A stretch of DNA of 11,912 bases, taken from assembly GCA_947306025.1 (NCBI GenBank), contig CAMZFJ010000024.1, positions 1 through 11,912 on the forward strand, read 5' to 3'. A program made the translations under genes and the position numbers. Positions within the stretch are counted from its first letter, which is position 1. Every line of letters begins with the position of its first letter. Positions 880-7,736 of this stretch are shown here, piece by piece. The notes under the pieces are model-generated. The model ran no database searches, was not told the DNA's origin, and worked only from the letters and a program-made list of their open reading frames with translations. The DNA comes from an uncultured Fibrobacter sp. GTDB lineage: Bacteria > Fibrobacterota > Fibrobacteria > Fibrobacterales > Fibrobacteraceae.

Positions 880-1281
880 ATGGATTACGAATACAGCGTC
901 ATTGGTTCTATTTTCTGCAACGCAGACACACTTGCCGTCACCGCGGATTCCGAATTCACGTACAAAAGCTACAAGTTTTCGCTCCGCAAATTCAGCAATC
1001 GCATCAGCGTAAGCCTTCGCGACATTACAAGCAGCACCACCGACGATATTCCAGATGCAGTAAATACAACCAACATCAGCAACATCTGTCAAAACATCCC
1101 CGAAGCAGACGTCACCGAAGTTTGCAAAATCCTCTCTGAGAAATTCGCCTGTACCGTATCCATGCGCAAAGGCTACGAAGTCTACGGCAACGCCAATGTT
1201 TTCAACGGTGGCTCCGACTACGAAGTCATCGAAGAAAAATGGTTCACCGTTGAGTTCGACAACGGCATTCAAAAAAACTAA
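880..1281 (+). CDS. Hypothetical protein, 133 aa
   Basis: I do not recognise this protein. It is the only plus-strand gene in the window. Codon use supports it: third positions favour C in ATC, TTC, GAC, AAC, TAC and GGC, as in its neighbours. The overlapping minus-strand frame (862-1308) gives a low-complexity product and would intrude on the kinase gene. The protein has no signal peptide or membrane helix. It alternates hydrophobic and polar residues (e.g. YEYSVIGSIF near the start, EEKWFTVEFDNG near the end), suggesting a small, mostly beta cytoplasmic domain, with one helical stretch near 75-90 (DVTEVCKILSEKFACTV). The start has a TAnnTTT element 5 bases upstream and no ribosome-binding site. 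Its TAA (1279-1281) overlaps the TAG of the convergent kinase (1278-1280). Confidence 0.7.
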   Translation: MDYEYSVIGSIFCNADTLAVTADSEFTYKSYKFSLRKFSNRISVSLRDITSSTTDDIPDAVNTTNISNICQNIPEADVTEVCKILSEKFACTVSMRKGYEVYGNANVFNGGSDYEVIEEKWFTVEFDNGIQKN

Positions 1282-4200
1282 CGGAAGAATTTCGCAAGGG
1301 TCGCGCAAAGCACTTCAACATCCACAGGCTTTGCCACGTGATCGTTCATGCCGGCATCCATTGCGGCACGTTTGTCTTCGTCAAACGCATTCGCCGTCAT
1401 CGCTATAATCGGCACATCCGAAACGCCCTTCTTTTTCATAGCTCTAATCTGACGAGTCGTTTCATAACCGTCAATACCCGGCATCTGGATATCCATCAAA
1501 ATAGCATCGTACTCGATCGATGAATACTTGAGTTTTTCTACAGCAAGGTCTCCACGTTCCATCGCCGTCACTTCAATACCGCGATCTTCAAGGATTTCCG
1601 TAGAAATTTCACGGTTGAGTACATTATCTTCAACAAGCATCACCTTTCGGCCTGTAAAGTCGTATTTTTTCGGCTCATTCGAGAGTTCTTCAAATTCAGA
1701 CATCGATTCCGACGAGCAACCACAGAACTTTTGCAATATGCTATGCAAATCCGACGGGAACAAAGGCTTTGCAAAGAACGATGTTACACCCGCTTCAAAA
1801 GCTTCCTTTTCTATATCAATCCAATCATACGAAGTCAGCACGACAATCGGCGTGGTCATTCCGATAACTTTGCGAATCTGGCGTGTAATCTGGATTCCCT
1901 TCATTTCCGGCATATTCCAGTCAATTAGAATCAGGCCGTAATTATCGTTTGCAGCGCGAGAGTTTTCAATGTAGGCCAAAGCCTCGTCACCCGACATACA
2001 CAAATCAAAACGCAAACCTTCTTTCTTTAACGCCGCATCTACAGTTCTACAGATATTCGGTCGATCGTTCACGATCAAGCAATGGAAACCTGCGAACTTT
2101 CCATTCACCACAGAAGTTGCAGGCTTTTCACAAAGCTTAAACTTAAAGGTCATGAAAACTTCCGTTCCCACCTGTTCTCGGCTCGAAACCTCAATAGTCC
2201 CACCCATCATATCTATGATGTTCTTCGTGATGGACATGCCAAGGCCGGTTCCCTGAATACCGCTTACCGTCGATGAATTCACGCGAGTAAACGGTGCAAA
2301 AATTTGCTTCAAGAAATCCTCATTCATACCGATACCGTTATCTTTCACCAAGAATTCATAAATGGCGTAGCCCGGCTCGGCAGAAACTTCCTTGACATTC
2401 ATCAAGACGACACCTTTTTCAGGCGTGTACTTAATGGCATTGGAAACAACATTCAACAAAACTTGATTCAGGCGCAATTTATCGCACATGATCATTTCAT
2501 TATGAACATTTTCCAGTTCAACAATGAATTGCTGCCCACGAGAACGAACATCCGAAAGAACAATTCCCTTTAGCATGTGGATAATATCCGCAAGGCTTTC
2601 CGGACGATTCGTAATATTCATCTTTCCCGATTCAATGCGACTCATATCGAGAACATCATTGATGAGCGAAAGCAAATGCTCCGACGACCGGCTAATTTTC
2701 GAAAGGTAATCAGCAACTTGTTCCTTATTGTCGATATGTTCCGTTGCAAGCCCCGTAAAACCGATAATCGCATTCATCGGCGTACGGATATCATGGCTCA
2801 TATTGTTGAGGAAGGTTGTCTTTGCACGGCTTGCAGAATTTGCCATCAAAAGCGCTTTTTCCAAAGCCTCTTTATCCTTTTTCTGCTTACGCGTTTCTTC
2901 ATCAACGCTATGGAAGCCCGCAACAATCTGCACCGGGTTCGTCGCCGTCAACACAAATTTAATTTGCCAATATTCAATACGCCCTAAAACATCAGCCTTG
3001 AAATTGACATAATAGGCGTTCTTGCTTTTGAGATTTTCAAGAATCACGTCTCTACGGGTAGACTTCAAGAACAATTCGTAATCATCTCTACATACAAACT
3101 TTTCAACAATTACACCGAGACGTTCATTAAATCCCTTGATTTTATCCCACTCTGGGAATACACGCGGGAAAAGATCCGTACAACGGTAAACGTTTTCACG
3201 CATGGAAACAGCATCAATATAACACACCAAGTCAAAGTCTTCGGCAAGGCCCTGGATCACAGCCTGTTGCTGGATTTCCTTACGCAAGACATCATCCTTA
3301 TCGGCAAAGCCTAGCGCTGCAAATTTCGGATGGTTCGAATCACCCACTTTCACAAACTTCATTTCGCAATAGCGATTGAGGAAGTTCACGTACATGGTCT
3401 CAAAGCTTTTTCGTTTCGAAAGTTGCTCGCGAATATTCTTGATGGATCCGGCTTGGAGCATTCGATTCTTGTAAATGCCACTTACAAACTTATCTACATA
3501 AACAGAATACGCCGCCGAATACTTGACATTGCGCTTGAACGTTTCGCCAAAAGAATTCGCAGTCGTCTTATTCATGGAATAAGGCGTAATCTCTTCTGTT
3601 TCAAGATTGATGTAATAAACCGATGTGTATTCAGCAGAAAGCGCTTCAATAATGGAAATATTGCGTTCCAGTTCTTCTTTCTGTTCCGCAATCATCTTGT
3701 TCAGCTGGATTTTTTCGGCGCGTTTTTTATCCACAACAGAAAACGTCATAATGACAAGAGTCGCGACACCATTCCGACGTTCCACAACCTGCATTACAAA
3801 ACTCAGCCACGGATCCTTAAAACGGGATGCCTTAAAGAGCAATTCACGACGATCATCATAAGCCAGCAATCGCTGGATATACTGCGGGCTTGCAAGACGA
3901 AGCCATTCATCCTTGTATTCGCTATCGACAAGTTGCACCATTCTATAAGCGCGATAAGAACAAGTGCTACGCTGCCTTTTATCGCCAAAATCAACTTTCT
4001 TCGATGGCAAAATTTCACGGGCCGTATCATTCGACAAATCGCAAAGGAGGATTGCCTCGTATTCCGCCATAATTTTTTCATGCACAAAGCGGGCACTGAC
4101 TTCTTCATCGCGGTCGGCAAAAGCAACAACCATCGCCGTCGGCTCTTCGTTCACAGCATTGACCTTGACAAACTTCATTTCGCTGTAACGCACTTGCCCA

Positions 4201-5756
4201 GCGAGATTCGAACGGAAAAGAGCGACATAAGTCTTATTATTTCTAAGGAAAGCCTTGATATTTCTGATATCGCCAGCCTCAAGCATTCTCTCTTTATCGG
4301 CATCGTAAACAAAGTCGTGTACAAAATGCAAATATGCATCATTATACTTTATTCCATCTTTTAACATTGCACCGTAATAATGCCTTGACATCTCGTTCAT
4401 GGAATACGGAATCACTTCATCCGTTAAAAGATTGATATACATGACCGATGAATATTCTGACGCCAGCACATCGATAATCGAAAGGTTGACTTCCAATTCT
4501 TTTTTCTGGTGTTCCAGTTTTTCGTTCATGCTAAGACGTTCAGATTGGTCCCTATCTATCGAAGTACTCGTCAACACGAGCGTTACCGGGACACCATCAA
4601 TTCTGTCCAGAACTCTAAACACACTTCGGCACCAAAAGAAAGAGCCATCTTCAGTCAAATGCTTAAAGATTAACTCACGACTATCATCTTTTGCAAATAG
4701 TTGCTTTAGGTAATTGACATCACCCAATTTTTTCCATTGTTCATGATGATCTTTGTGAACAAAAGTCAGCGCATTGCTAAAGGCTTCACCGTAACTATAA
4801 ACTTCCTTTGCTTTATCAACCATGTTATACTTAGACTGGCGAACAACATGGACCAAAACTTCTTCAAGATCAATAAGATAAATACTTGCAAATTCATCGC
4901 GAACTTTTTCATTGATTTTTTGAGTAATGACCTCTTCATTTTTATTGACAAAGCCCACCAAAAATTCATTTTCTTCGCCAATATCAAAACGCATCACGCG
5001 GACTTCGTACCAGCGAGCATACCCAAGCGCAATATCACGGAACAAATAACGGAAGCTGTGTTCATGAGAAAGGCGTTCAAGAATACGTTTCCTATCAAGA
5101 CCTTCACGTATCATCTTACGATCGGCCGGATGGATTACATTCATGGCAACAAATTCACCGGTACTTTGCAAGTTTCCTTCAAGCGGGAAAAAGCCTTTAA
5201 GTTCTTCCTTGCAATAAAGCGTTCTAAACGTATTCCTTGTCGGATTAAAGACAAACACAGATTCCACTTGCTCGCCAAACTTCATGACAATGCTTTCGTT
5301 GAGATGGCGATCTAGTTCGTAGCGCTGTTTTGAACGAATGTCGCGGTCGACATTGCGCAGTCGCATCACAATCCCTTTAAGCGCTTTGGATTCATCACGG
5401 TCCGCAAAGAAGCCCATTTGGAAATACACTTCTTTGCCGTCAATATCACACTTAAAAGGAACTACATACTGCGTTTTCTTTTCAAGATTTTCTAGAATAA
5501 TTTCACGACGAGTACTTTTATAAAAAACTTCGCGATCACTATCACAAACAAAATTATTGCAAAGAATATCCAAACGTTTATGGAAATTGCACTCACCCTG
5601 AAGAGCAGGAACACGAGTCACAAGAAACGGGCTTATATGAAAGATCTCAACATCGTCATCTTCAGGATTTTTTTTCAAGTCAACGTAGCAAACACAATCA
5701 TATTCATCCGCTATGGATTCAATGATTGCATTACCCTTCAAATCTTTTCTTATCAT
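1278..5756 (-). CDS. Hybrid sensor histidine kinase with seven PAS-like modules and two receiver domains, 1492 aa
   Basis: This is a cytoplasmic hybrid histidine kinase: there is no signal peptide or membrane helix. Its N-terminal ~955 residues are seven PAS-like sensor modules of three recurring types. Type A lies at about 11-140, 426-553, 701-825 and 834-953; type B at about 155-275 (HPADRKMI); type C at about 284-405 and 558-680. The transmitter follows: H-box SHDIRTPMN with phospho-accepting H988, N-box around N1106, G1 box DNGIGM (1139-1144), F-box FAPF (1153-1156) and G2 box GTGLGM (1169-1174). Receiver 1 (about 1221-1345) has D1279, T1308 and K1330, but its acidic pair is N1230-D1231. 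Receiver 2 (about 1369-1492) has E1376-D1377, D1422, T1454 and K1476. It probably relays phosphate to an output regulator not in this window. The ligand is unknown. The start has AGGA 10 bases upstream and a TATATTTTG promoter element. Confidence 0.95.
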   Translation of the reverse strand: MIRKDLKGNAIIESIADEYDCVCYVDLKKNPEDDDVEIFHISPFLVTRVPALQGECNFHKRLDILCNNFVCDSDREVFYKSTRREIILENLEKKTQYVVPFKCDIDGKEVYFQMGFFADRDESKALKGIVMRLRNVDRDIRSKQRYELDRHLNESIVMKFGEQVESVFVFNPTRNTFRTLYCKEELKGFFPLEGNLQSTGEFVAMNVIHPADRKMIREGLDRKRILERLSHEHSFRYLFRDIALGYARWYEVRVMRFDIGEENEFLVGFVNKNEEVITQKINEKVRDEFASIYLIDLEEVLVHVVRQSKYNMVDKAKEVYSYGEAFSNALTFVHKDHHEQWKKLGDVNYLKQLFAKDDSRELIFKHLTEDGSFFWCRSVFRVLDRIDGVPVTLVLTSTSIDRDQSERLSMNEKLEHQKKELEVNLSIIDVLASEYSSVMYINLLTDEVIPYSMNEMSRHYYGAMLKDGIKYNDAYLHFVHDFVYDADKERMLEAGDIRNIKAFLRNNKTYVALFRSNLAGQVRYSEMKFVKVNAVNEEPTAMVVAFADRDEEVSARFVHEKIMAEYEAILLCDLSNDTAREILPSKKVDFGDKRQRSTCSYRAYRMVQLVDSEYKDEWLRLASPQYIQRLLAYDDRRELLFKASRFKDPWLSFVMQVVERRNGVATLVIMTFSVVDKKRAEKIQLNKMIAEQKEELERNISIIEALSAEYTSVYYINLETEEITPYSMNKTTANSFGETFKRNVKYSAAYSVYVDKFVSGIYKNRMLQAGSIKNIREQLSKRKSFETMYVNFLNRYCEMKFVKVGDSNHPKFAALGFADKDDVLRKEIQQQAVIQGLAEDFDLVCYIDAVSMRENVYRCTDLFPRVFPEWDKIKGFNERLGVIVEKFVCRDDYELFLKSTRRDVILENLKSKNAYYVNFKADVLGRIEYWQIKFVLTATNPVQIVAGFHSVDEETRKQKKDKEALEKALLMANSASRAKTTFLNNMSHDIRTPMNAIIGFTGLATEHIDNKEQVADYLSKISRSSEHLLSLINDVLDMSRIESGKMNITNRPESLADIIHMLKGIVLSDVRSRGQQFIVELENVHNEMIMCDKLRLNQVLLNVVSNAIKYTPEKGVVLMNVKEVSAEPGYAIYEFLVKDNGIGMNEDFLKQIFAPFTRVNSSTVSGIQGTGLGMSITKNIIDMMGGTIEVSSREQVGTEVFMTFKFKLCEKPATSVVNGKFAGFHCLIVNDRPNICRTVDAALKKEGLRFDLCMSGDEALAYIENSRAANDNYGLILIDWNMPEMKGIQITRQIRKVIGMTTPIVVLTSYDWIDIEKEAFEAGVTSFFAKPLFPSDLHSILQKFCGCSSESMSEFEELSNEPKKYDFTGRKVMLVEDNVLNREISTEILEDRGIEVTAMERGDLAVEKLKYSSIEYDAILMDIQMPGIDGYETTRQIRAMKKKGVSDVPIIAMTANAFDEDKRAAMDAGMNDHVAKPVDVEVLCATLAKFFR
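3282..4085 (-). repeat. Second copy of a duplicated C-A sensor pair within the kinase
   Basis: This encodes kinase residues 558-825. The order is a type C PAS-like module, a short helical linker (EKIQLNKMIAEQKEELERN) and a type A module opening with SIIEALSAEYTSVYYINLET and then PYSMN. It is clearly homologous to residues 284-553, encoded at 4098-4907, in the same order and with a near-identical linker. Internal duplication is the simplest explanation. Confidence 0.75.
4098..4907 (-). repeat. First copy of a duplicated C-A sensor pair within the kinase
   Basis: This encodes kinase residues 284-553. A type C module is joined by the linker ERLSMNEKLEHQKKELEVN to a type A module opening with SIIDVLASEYSSVMYINLLT and then PYSMN. 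The partner copy is at 3282-4085. The linker-to-PYSMN boundary is the best-conserved part of the two copies. Confidence 0.75.
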
Positions 5757-5862: not shown

Positions 5863-6078
5863 TTAAAAGTCCATATTTTCTAGCATTTTTTCGTCGCGAT
5901 TGTCTTCTAAATGGCGTTCAGCGGTCTCTGCTATTTTGGCGTTATGACCACGTAAAGCAGCAAACGGGCTAAATATTTTAGCACGAGATTCAATCGACAT
6001 CCGCGGATGCTTCATCAAGAAATTCCAATCGTCCCGCGGGTAAGGCAAATCGATTATATCTTTGTAGTTGTCGAGCAT
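5863..6078 (-). CDS. YolD-like protein, 71 aa
   Basis: This small soluble protein has the core HPRMSIESRAKIFSPFAALRGH (about residues 24-45; first part HPRMSIESRAKIF), characteristic of YolD-like proteins. It is followed by a charged C-terminal helix. YolD-like genes usually lie beside UvrX/YqjW-type Y-family polymerases and are thought to play a part comparable to UmuD of polymerase V, perhaps controlling access to the lesion. The polymerase is here too, just upstream on the same strand, which supports the assignment. The unusual point is the 257-base repeat-filled gap between them, with a hairpin just after the polymerase stop. The ATG (6076-6078) has no Shine-Dalgarno and no TAnnTTT element; heptamer repeats run almost to the start codon. 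An intact frame and a conserved core argue that the gene is still functional. Confidence 0.8.
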   Translation of the reverse strand: MLDNYKDIIDLPYPRDDWNFLMKHPRMSIESRAKIFSPFAALRGHNAKIAETAERHLEDNRDEKMLENMDF

Positions 6079-6081
6079 AAT

Positions 6082-6133
6082 GCAGTGATTAGTGGTTAGT
6101 AAACAGTATGCAGTGGTTAGTGATTAGTGGTTA
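6082..6133 (+). repeat. Heptamer array GTGRTTA in two blocks
   Basis: Two 19-base blocks, GCAGTGATTAGTGGTTAGT (6082-6100) and GCAGTGGTTAGTGATTAGT (6110-6128), differ at two positions and are offset by 28 bases. Each is built of tandem GTGRTTA heptamers, two in the first block and three in the second (to 6133). Read on the minus strand this forms the region just before the YolD-like ATG, and it is almost free of G (TAACCACTAATCACTAACCA at its upstream end). Confidence 0.85.
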
Positions 6134-6139
6134 TTTTTA

Positions 6140-6167
6140 GACGAGAGACGAAAGACGAGAGAGAGAA
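6140..6167 (+). repeat. Heptamer array GACGARA, polypurine
   Basis: GACGAGA (6140-6146), GACGAAA (6147-6153), GACGAGA (6154-6160) and the degenerate GAGAGAA (6161-6167) lie end to end. The tract is nearly all purine on the plus strand. The word is unrelated to the neighbouring GTGRTTA array but has the same 7-base period. Confidence 0.8.
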
Positions 6168-6207
6168 ATAATCGTGGTTTCGGCGCAGTTACCAGATGTT
6201 AGTTAGT

Positions 6208-6270
6208 AGTTACTAGAGATTCTTTAGTTACTAGAATTCTTAATATGAAATTCTCTAGTAACTAGTAACT
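6208..6270. repeat. Inverted repeat with two competing left arms
   Basis: AGTTACTAGAGA (6208-6219) is perfectly complementary to TCTCTAGTAACT (6252-6263), a 12-bp stem. A second left arm, AGTTACTAGAATT (6226-6238), can pair with the same right arm: 13 bp with a two-base bulge and a 10-base loop. A further AGTAACT follows at 6264-6270. The two left arms cannot both pair with the right arm at once. Confidence 0.7.
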
Positions 6271-6284
6271 CGGAACTCATAACT

Positions 6285-6297
6285 GTTGCGAAGCAAC
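6285..6297 (-). terminator. Small hairpin GTTGC-TTC-GCAAC, terminator-like
   Basis: A 5-bp stem with a three-base loop lies 38 bases after the polymerase stop. It is followed by AGTTATG rather than a U run, so termination by this hairpin alone would be weak. It is the second of two hairpin modules downstream of the polymerase. Confidence 0.4.
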
Positions 6298-6309
6298 CTC
6301 AGTAACTCC

Positions 6310-6335
6310 AAACTCAAAACTGCGGCAAAGCCGCA
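6310..6335 (-). terminator. Probable intrinsic terminator of the Y-family polymerase gene
   Basis: The hairpin TGCGGC-TTT-GCCGCA begins on the base after the polymerase TGA (6336-6338). A T-rich tail, GTTTTGAGTTT (6320-6310), follows. The stem is short (6 bp) but GC-rich. If it works, it would cut the YolD-like gene off from polymerase transcription. Confidence 0.55.
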
Positions 6336-7736
6336 TCATGCCTTGTGCCCTCCGATTTGTTCGTTGCGTTCACGAGTTGTGGCTCCTTCCTGCATGTCCA
6401 TGCCCTTAAAAATGGCGTTCTTGCCAAAGCGCTTTTTTATCGCAATTTGCGCAAGCATCATCTTCTTTTCGCGTTCCACTTTTTTCACATCCGTGAACAA
6501 GTCATAGCTCTCTTGCGTCGTGCTTAAAACATTATTTGCCGTCAAGTTCAAGCGTTTCACAGTGAGCATCGGATTCATAATGCGGTCGGCAAGTTTCATC
6601 ACCGCTTCGGCAATCGTCGATGCCGACGAAGTGTAATTCATGAGCGGTGCGGTTCCGTGTGCCGGTTTTGGAATCGTACGGCCATAACCGTCAACAACAG
6701 TCTCGCCATGATAAATTCCTTTATCCACATTTTCACGGTCGTAGCCCACATGGAGCGTAAGGCCATTCGTCACAAGACCTTTTTCAACAAGGTCCAACGC
6801 AAGCGTATCGACCATTTCGCGGATAACAATTTTCGCTTTCGCAGAGTCGTACGCACAACTTAAAACCTGCCCACCGCCAATGCTATGCGTCTTGGATTTA
6901 TACCGTTTGATTTCGGCAATTCCGCATGGTTCATAGCCCCATGCATGGTCAATTAAAATTTCGGCATTCACGCCAAACATCTTGTAAAGCGCATCGGGAT
7001 TCTTGACGCTCACACGCGCAAGGTCGCCCATCGTAAAGATGCCACGACCATTATTCAAATAGCAATGTTCCAAGCGCTCCGCAATGCCGCGGCCCAACTG
7101 CCAAAAGCTCGTCAACGGCCGATGACTCCACAGTTCCCTGCGGTACGTCATCTCGTCAAGTTCCGCAATGCGTACGCCATCTGTATCAGGCGCGACATGC
7201 TTCGCCATCACATCCATCGCAATCTTGCAAAGATAAAGGTTTGTCCCGATGCCCGCCGTTGCTGTAATCCCCGTCGTTTCAAGCACATCGCGGATCATAT
7301 CCTTTGCCAGTTCACGTGCCGACTTTTTATACAGCGAAAGGTAATGCGTCAAGTCGATAAAACATTCATCAATCGAGTAAACATGAATGTCTTCTTCGCT
7401 CACGTATTTCAAATAAACTTCATAGATGTGGGTAGAATATTCCACATACTTCGCCATTTGCGGAGGCGCCACAATGTACTGGATTTTTTCGCCCGTCCGG
7501 CGTTTCACATCGCGTACCTTTTGAATAACTTCGAACAATCGCGCACGCCCAGGAATCCCATACGCTTTAAGGCTCGGAGTTACGGCCAAGCAAATCGTCT
7601 TTTCCGTACGGCTCGCATCGGCAACCACCAGGTTCGTCGTCAGCGGGTCAAGTCCACGCAGCACGCACTCCACGGACGCAAAAAACGACTTCAAGTCGAT
7701 TGCAACATAAGTACGGTTTTCGCGTGGCAGTCTCAT
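6336..7736 (-). CDS. Y-family translesion DNA polymerase (UvrX/YqjW-like), 466 aa
   Basis: The enzyme copies past damaged bases with low fidelity. The palm has D14 in AIDLKSFFASVE (12-23) and D123-E124 in YSIDECFIDL (120-129), the metal-binding carboxylates of Y-family polymerases. TATAGIGTNLYLCKIAMD (158-175) is the conserved palm segment after them. Helix-hairpin-helix motifs lie near 205-245, and the little finger begins around GGGQVLSCAY (287-296). SYDLF (410-414) fits the position and form of a sliding-clamp-binding motif (QL[SD]LF type). The C-terminal RFGKNAIFKG and EGATTRERNEQIGGHKA are typical of UvrX/YqjW-like enzymes rather than classic DinB. At 466 residues it is somewhat longer than classic DinB. 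The ATG is preceded by TATATTTA, only 4 bases away, and by no Shine-Dalgarno. A LexA-box-like sequence lies upstream. The YolD-like partner gene is downstream. Confidence 0.95.
   Translation of the reverse strand: MRLPRENRTYVAIDLKSFFASVECVLRGLDPLTTNLVVADASRTEKTICLAVTPSLKAYGIPGRARLFEVIQKVRDVKRRTGEKIQYIVAPPQMAKYVEYSTHIYEVYLKYVSEEDIHVYSIDECFIDLTHYLSLYKKSARELAKDMIRDVLETTGITATAGIGTNLYLCKIAMDVMAKHVAPDTDGVRIAELDEMTYRRELWSHRPLTSFWQLGRGIAERLEHCYLNNGRGIFTMGDLARVSVKNPDALYKMFGVNAEILIDHAWGYEPCGIAEIKRYKSKTHSIGGGQVLSCAYDSAKAKIVIREMVDTLALDLVEKGLVTNGLTLHVGYDRENVDKGIYHGETVVDGYGRTIPKPAHGTAPLMNYTSSASTIAEAVMKLADRIMNPMLTVKRLNLTANNVLSTTQESYDLFTDVKKVEREKKMMLAQIAIKKRFGKNAIFKGMDMQEGATTRERNEQIGGHKA

Follow-up and report, generated by a model that had tools for sequence, protein, structure and literature searches.

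Why does one spacer between two genes hold several unrelated seven-base words that all repeat with the same period? The question is raised by an uncultured Fibrobacter sp. (contig CAMZFJ010000024.1), of which we analyzed a stretch of 11,912 nucleotides, here called the window. The spacer lies between the gene of a Y-family DNA polymerase (IMS/ImpB-MucB-SamB; 6336-7736, minus strand; Pfam PF00817, E 1.4e-28, and PF11799, E 2.8e-9), which is the upstream gene of the operon, and a codirectional ORF of 71 aa (5863-6078, minus strand), which the initial annotation had called YolD-like and for which a Pfam search gave no match. The closest relatives of the polymerase were found in six Fibrobacter genomes, with protein identities of 92-94%. 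The operon adjoins a gene for a large hybrid sensor kinase (1278-5756, minus strand; HisKA, HATPase and two receiver domains in Pfam). The three heptamer words reported earlier were all found, namely GTGRTTA (6082-6133), GACGARA (6140-6167) and AGTTNNN on the minus strand (6250-6321). Over 6082-6335, the identity at lag 7 was 0.457, compared to 0.263 (sd 0.028) in dinucleotide shuffles, with none of 2000 shuffles as high, and lags 14, 21 and 28 were elevated too. When taken alone, the GTGRTTA array (6082-6133) and the AACT array (6250-6321) had lag-7 identities of 0.667 and 0.492, both above their own shuffles. The short GACGARA array (6139-6167) gave p = 0.03 against its own biased composition and a non-significant 0.23 if any lag from 3 to 15 may win, and it was accepted because the same word recurs genome-wide in relatives.

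The spacer contains more than these three arrays. A fourth stretch, overlooked in the initial annotation, consists of plus-strand AGTT units at 6188-6237 and pairs as a reverse complement with the AACT array; two small GC hairpins (6285-6297 and 6322-6334) had also been overlooked. Read in the operon sense, on the minus strand, the spacer begins directly 3' of the polymerase stop with the hairpin GCGGC TTT GCCGC (6322-6334), which is paired in the RNA fold. It is followed by the outer G-rich units AGTTTTG AGTTTGG AGTTACT (6299-6321), assigned by sequence to an AGTTACT-family element, by a small hairpin within the arm, GTTGC TTC GCAAC (6285-6297, also by sequence), and by the G-rich 5' arm of the AGTTACT-family element, AGTTATG AGTTCCG AGTTACT AGTTACT AGAG... 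(6245-6284, by alignment and fold). After a short loop, the C-rich 3' arm of this element, made of AACTNNN units (6188-6237), is the reverse complement of the 5' arm at 6245-6284. Next come the C-rich 3' arm of a GACGAGA-family element with TCTCGTC units (6138-6169, by alignment), whose own 5' arm is absent, and the C-rich 3' arm of a GGTTAG-family element with CTAACCACT units (6079-6135, by alignment), which ends at the start codon of the next gene. In the fold, the arms at 6245-6284 and 6188-6237 paired with each other (z -2.5; 3 of 200 shuffles were as stable).

Related genomes carry tandem copies of these words as well. A 23-base GTGRTTA-type pattern (up to 3 mismatches) matched in 10 of 14 relatives, with up to 117 matches per genome compared to 0-8 for the reversed control, where pattern counts, here and below, include overlapping matches in one array. 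With simple ORFs as gene calls, we found 17 intergenic lag-7 islands in G006 (400 kb) and 14 in G007 (387 kb), compared to at most 3 at any lag from 4 to 22 that is not a multiple of 7, and 0 at lag 7 in shuffles. Another setting gave 71 lag-7 islands in 814 kb of G004 that had not been selected for arrays, and the same setting gave none in stretches of G009, G012 and G013 (100-121 kb each) or in single 21-kb loci of G002 and G010. Across 63 non-Fibrobacter loci, with 112 kb of intergenic DNA, no lag-7 island was found at a stricter cut-off, and a looser setting applied to 60 of these loci found arrays in 7 of 537 spacers. The recurrence of the words and an intergenic period 7 far above shuffled controls in Fibrobacter contradict the two outcomes that would have refuted the initial annotation, which is right in that unrelated words have one common period and that the period itself is the conserved feature. 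Clustering of 217 arrays by word gave TTAnTAG (61), TGGTTAG (49), GNAGTAG (35), ACGANAG (19) and minor clusters; these counts carry a sampling bias, since GGTTAG arrays guided the choice of the G003 stretches, and arrays were also considered in choosing several G007 stretches, which biases densities and word counts there. Word usage varies sharply among species. The reversed control patterns matched often in a few genomes (57 in G057, 30 in G099 and 13 in G163), which hints that these genomes have additional heptamer words. Interspersed with the heptads are other dispersed-looking intergenic repeats (L167:2163-2293, L151:9527-9673 and L004:8316-8431), of types such as CATTCTGAGCGGAG...GAAGAATCC and CCTGAGC...GTCGAAGGG, and they differ between close relatives too.

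The arrays have a fixed architecture. When two of the 217 arrays were adjacent in one spacer, a G-rich array was followed by a C-rich array in 32 cases and the reverse order occurred once, with 8 G-rich/G-rich and 7 C-rich/C-rich pairs; the G-then-C polarity is identical on both strands. Word similarity within the 32 arm pairs was 0.616, compared to 0.507 between arms from different spacers (p 1e-8); the gap between paired arms was 9-84 bp in 30 of the 32. Of 125 lone arms, 28 had a reverse-complement match of at least 9 bases on the expected side, compared to 3 with one on the opposite side. The median number of units per arm was 5.3 and 5.6. Such a pair of arrays is a hairpin whose stem is repetitive, and at L156:2213-2407 one palindrome is nested in the loop of another. 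In G004, arrays were present in 10 of 83 divergent, 39 of 240 codirectional and 15 of 74 convergent spacers, and many arms abut start codons. A pure terminator role did not fit these spacer-context counts and was rejected because divergent spacers carry arrays too.

A scan for ORFs flanked by two arms, which targeted no protein family, gave 20 matches among 2109 ORFs, with a PF05635 protein (E 7e-39) ranking first by word match; the other candidates among the 20 were left unclassified. PF05635 is the "23S rRNA intervening sequence protein" (IVP, or S23), a four-helix-bundle protein, and the solved homologue 2gsc matches the IVP found here (E 3e-19). We collected 108 Fibrobacterota IVP genes, including 60 extra loci with intact frames that were taken from the matches listed, mainly in Fibrobacter-like genomes, and are a non-random set. 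A period-7 arm was present on at least one side of 92 of the 108 genes, compared to 171 of 1075 control ORFs, and arms were present on both sides of 56 of the 108, compared to 12 of 1075. The controls were ORFs of at least 100 aa from the G004, G006 and G007 stretches, and two IVP genes lie within them; the array-biased G007 stretches are part of this control, and the bias therefore works against the link between IVP and arms. A set of 24 neighbouring genes (5' side positive in 15, 3' side in 8) had been tried as the control and was dropped for the 1075 ORFs because those genes adjoin the same element. Other steps were nearly absent at the 108 genes, with 0 of 108 at lags 4-6 and 9-12 and 2 of 108 at lag 8. 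The 16 genes under the arm threshold mostly show weak heptads by eye, and L247 shows none. Of 48 IVP loci, 25 passed on both arms; all 25 of these had a G-rich 5' arm and 23 had a C-rich 3' arm. At these 25 loci, the own-arm word match was 0.751, compared to 0.526 (p 2e-14), such that the terminal inverted repeats form a stem. Both neighbouring ORFs, by crude calls, ran in the IVP sense at 58 of 108 loci. The arm words include GACGAGA, GTAGGAA, GGTTAG, AGTTACT, AGAACTT, TAGGTTN, TGAGTTA, GATTGAT, TAGGGTA and others, and 68 of the 108 genes carry words outside the four classes that were typed.

PF05635 was found in 11 of the 14 genomes and, across the phylum, in 100 of 167 (E 0.001); the profile search gave no match in G009, G013 and G014. 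AGTTACT arrays are present in G014, where the PF05635 match is absent, and G012 has one IVP and almost no arrays. In viral contigs, 10 stretches matched IVP and none was confirmed. For the window and 19 of the 108 IVP loci, there was no Rfam match at the gathering score, and the elements are therefore not filed as classical rRNA intervening sequences (IVS).

The arrays of the window align, with the order of units retained, to the arms of three IVP subfamilies, and there is no PF05635 ORF between the repeats of the window copies. The arm at 6245-6284 aligned to the 5' arms of all five AGTTACT-type IVP genes with scores of at least 48, the best match being L248 with the unit order kept (54, compared to 28 for the best of 20 shuffles). 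Its partner at 6188-6237 was above the cut for one of five 3' arms of the same type (again L248, 44 versus 32). The stretch at 6138-6169 was above the cut for all 16 of the 3' arms of GACGAGA-type IVP genes (best matches L242, L328 and L338, with a score of 58 compared to 26-30 in shuffles), and 6079-6135 for one of seven 3' arms of GGTTAG-type genes (L318, 44 versus 24).

Protein identity and word similarity were correlated across 41 of the 48 IVP loci, seven having been dropped from this comparison (Mantel r 0.28, p 0.0005), and also when only different loci were compared (r 0.16, p 0.005). Proteins that are 60-80% identical at different loci (about 14 pairs) had a word sharing of 0.83. One junction, which we read from its flanking sequence as lysS-lolC-like (14 genes), carries proteins of the GACGAGA, GTAGGAA and GGTTAG types, the first of which is found at two junctions. 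The heptamer word thus tracks the IVP subfamily more than the locus. Furthermore, pattern matches were more numerous where the cognate IVP was present, with arrays beside IVP genes counted along with the rest: the median was 69 in 15 genomes versus 16 in 38 others for GACGAGA, 91 in 7 versus 19 in 46 for GGTTAG, and 79 in 5 versus 4 in 48 for AGTTACT, a genome scored as lacking the cognate IVP possibly carrying one outside the sampled IVP genes. These were the words counted across the phylum, GTAGGAA being left out. The enrichment had a permutation p of 5e-5, also after genome-wide richness was removed, as a correlation that ignores kinship, and the cognate word ranked first in 15 of the 25 genomes that have exactly one of the three typed IVP words. 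Arrays also occur where the sampled IVP genes include no cognate (360 GGTTAG matches in G089, and 186 and 98 AGTTACT matches in G136 and G090); incomplete genomes, unsampled IVP genes or loss are alternative explanations.

Copies that lack the ORF share their termini with complete elements, namely the 5' module of the GACGAGA type and the arms of the AGTTACT type, and they outnumber the complete copies. Of the 16 GACGAGA-type IVP genes, 14 have the GACGARAGAACG-hairpin-CTAYAGACGA module on their 5' side. Stretches totalling 2.61 Mb, some of them overlapping, have this module at 27 places and contain only 3 full IVP genes and 2 weak partial matches.

The same junction was compared in 17 relatives. 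In 11 of them the junction is empty: the small gene starts near or overlaps the polymerase stop, leaving 30-38 nt to the conserved motif of the small protein. In the other six the gap is 74-290 nt, and five of these filled junctions have heptad arms with differing words (L004, L005, L006, L008 and L012); the sixth, L013, has a short insert with no clear array. Around the junction, L003 and L004 share about 94% identity, yet one is empty and the other has a 187-bp insert. The last C-rich stretch (6079-6135) is common to the window, L004, L005 and L006, and this GGTTAG-family arm is therefore probably ancestral at the junction. The sequence upstream of it differs, and L004 and L006 resemble one another there. 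Because the last C-rich stretch is common to all four and the upstream parts differ, the simplest reading of the junction is a series of stacked insertions followed by losses. Comparison of empty and filled polymerase-yolD junctions gave no clean target-site duplication, only an ambiguous short repeat at one locus. In the window, GCATGATG (6334-6341, polymerase end) and GCATTATG (6076-6083, start codon of the next gene), both in operon sense, form a pair that resembles a short target duplication of the stop/start overlap, at this one locus.

Array positions coincide in orthologous spacers. Between G004 and G006, 8 spacers had arrays in both genomes, 3 and 0 in one only and 30 in neither (p 1.7e-6); between G003 and G004, the counts were 8, 1 and 1, and 26 (p 2.6e-6). 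Two more genome pairs, with 11 and 4 orthologous spacers, gave nothing significant. Words at orthologous sites were on average no more alike than those at other sites (0.476 versus 0.469 and 0.507 versus 0.490; small numbers), and the word is kept at some orthologous sites (L151:11191 with L208:7190, and L003:13447 with L004:13607).

We conclude that the patchwork in the window is very probably made of stacked, ORF-less remnants of small palindromic elements linked to IVP. A complete element consists of a G-rich heptad arm, the IVP gene and a C-rich heptad arm, placed between genes and mostly in the sense of its neighbours, with each IVP subfamily having its own heptamer words and the step staying at seven, rarely eight. 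ORF-less copies are two arms around a short loop; they behave like derivatives of the MITE type that would rely in trans on the IVP that matches their word. By inference, the elements are mobile, IVP binds their arms either as DNA or as an RNA hairpin, and its ring fixes the step at seven bases. Successive elements would settle at the operon junctions that tolerate them, stacking or nesting and then shedding parts, leaving different words with one period; here, they would have landed between the polymerase stop and the next start codon. The mixed words at one site are best read as several element families stacked or nested in one spacer. Such selfish elements would settle where transcripts may be interrupted, that is, between cistrons, as the classical IVS do in rRNA loops.

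Replication slippage was part of the slippage or copying mechanism with a seven-base step put forward in the initial annotation, and an explanation of this kind has been credited to Mrazek (2007) in the introduction of MacGregor (2015; PMC4679880), which also states that heptanucleotides are the most abundant long simple repeats in most genomes. A DNA polymerase that prefers a seven-base step would expand any non-coding word with period 7. It predicts no inverted arms of fixed G-then-C polarity, no word common to both arms, no IVP gene between them, and neither a word that follows the subfamily nor cognate enrichment, and the local form of the proposal fails on these points; the absence of intergenic period 7 at the strict cut-off in the 63 non-Fibrobacter loci, and its rarity at the loose one, also speak against it. 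We therefore regard slippage as a very improbable source of the arrays, although it may lengthen them once present. Even less credible are REP/BIME-like palindromes mobilized by a RAYT (Y1 transposase): the repeats are palindromic, intergenic and dispersed, and GTAG lies within some words, but PF01797 was found in only 5 of the 14 genomes and is absent from the array-rich G004, G007 and G011.

A regulon would need no movement at all. IVP would then be an RNA-binding regulator, the cognate arms its sites at operon junctions and the arms of its own gene autoregulatory, with sites and protein co-evolving. The frequent abutment of arms on start codons, a word that tracks the protein and the enrichment of cognate arrays would all suit such a system, and translational control by TAACTGA heptamers near start codons has been proposed (MacGregor, 2015; PMC4679880). 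However, arrays occur in every gene context, divergent spacers included; they are present or absent at one site, nested, and often of another word at orthologous sites; and IVP genes themselves sit in the same junctions with different words. We consider this explanation unlikely, and we retain stacked, IVP-linked elements as the preferred reading.

The nucleoid or RNA-binding protein that the initial annotation suggested as a reader of the period has a possible candidate in an IVP ring. The related S23 protein of X. campestris (2gsc) is reported to be a homopentamer of four-helix bundles (Warrier, 2016; PMC4990558). We tentatively propose, as an idea that is more doubtful than the element model itself, that seven bases are the footprint of one IVP subunit, that the ring drives element copying, and that heptad repeats in different bacterial phyla are arms of one large, unrecognised class of IVP elements. 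The ring would wrap one strand or the hairpin of an arm with one heptad per subunit, much as TRAP wraps (G/U)AG triplets, and five subunits would fit the medians of 5.3 and 5.6 units. The word would change as the subunit surface changes, and the step could not; a ring on its arms would drive copying into operon junctions. The link between IVP and the arms predicts the heptamer word of a genome from its IVP sequence.

Armed IVP genes also occur elsewhere. Of 27 plasmid records with an IVP match, 17 were analyzed, 15 of them cyanobacterial. Of these 17 loci, 12 had 5' heptads and 14 had 3' heptads, and the remaining 3 had octamers instead of 3' heptads. One or both sides carried heptad arms in Nostoc, Calothrix, Anabaena, Pseudanabaena, other cyanobacteria and Azospirillum, and octamer arms in Gemmatirosa, Picosynechococcus and Leptolyngbya. 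The step is eight instead of seven at L297, L298 and L301, and at L259 by eye alone. Both heptanucleotide and octanucleotide dispersed elements have been reported in Geobacter metallireducens (PMC2700814). On three cyanobacterial plasmids (L285, L294 and L298), an IVP gene with heptad or octamer arms lies between cas genes, twice between cas6 and cas4 and once between cas10 and a cmr3-family gene. Insertion into operons may partly account for the association reported between PF05635 and CRISPR-cas, comprising 18 genes in cas loci (PMC3936711), given that 3 of the 17 plasmid copies lie between cas genes.

We assign the repeats to a variant of the IVS/IVP element family. A 428-444-nt 23S rRNA IVS element with an S23/IVP gene has been described (Warrier, 2016; PMC4990558); classical IVS have an inverted-repeat stem, an S23 gene, excision by RNase III and a hypothesised mobility, and S23/IVP proteins are described there as having no known function. 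The Fibrobacter elements resemble them in the protein family, in the gene placed in the loop of a stem of terminal inverted repeats, and in being proposed selfish or mobile elements that insert where RNA continuity is dispensable. Unlike 23S rRNA IVS, they lie between protein genes and outside rRNA (19 IVP loci and the window), their stems are heptad arrays with a subfamily-specific word, and ORF-less copies are far commoner than complete ones. In this last respect they resemble MITEs, which are non-autonomous derivatives of transposons: the ORF-less copies share terminal modules with the complete ones, outnumber them, and are commoner where the cognate gene is present. They differ from MITEs in that no transposase was identified for the heptad-arm elements, and we know of no catalytic activity of IVP. 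A structural homology to IVP is stated for Avd, the accessory protein of diversity-generating retroelements (PMC10053308), and the Pfam bAvd model matches IVP weakly (E 1e-4, below its cut-off). Searches joining IVP, S23 or the four-helix bundle with repeats found no such link in the passages retrieved, including those of PMC4990558, PMC3936711, PMC10053308 and PMC5041132, and among the PMC matches listed for Fibrobacter repeats there was nothing on the subject. For the unexplained repeats and for the protein without a known function, the link between them offers a testable answer, the repeats being arms and the protein being the element's own.

STRR are heptanucleotide repeats of cyanobacteria, and like STRR/LSSR tandem repeats the arrays of the window and of other Fibrobacter are tandem 7-mers in non-coding DNA. 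Heptanucleotide repeats of cyanobacteria and other bacteria have been ascribed to slippage or left open, and TAACTGA repeats are described in Beggiatoaceae, cyanobacteria and Bacteroidetes (MacGregor, 2015; PMC4679880). Like the Fibrobacter arrays, TAACTGA repeats are intergenic heptads, mixed with other heptamers in some species and mostly just 5' of start codons in one genome; two close relatives differ mostly by 7-nt indels (PMC4679880). In addition, TAACTGA is among the units of the Fibrobacter IVP arm L263. In contrast to our arrays, one inverted TAACTGA repeat was reported, the terms 'four helix', 'intervening' and 'S23' are absent from that paper, and its retrieved portions contain no link between word and protein. 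IVP genes with heptad or octamer arms are found on 15 cyanobacterial plasmid records, and the heptamer repeats known from cyanobacteria and Beggiatoaceae may therefore be arms of this kind. Such an arrangement outside Fibrobacter suggests where the long-puzzling 7-base repeats in many bacterial genomes come from.
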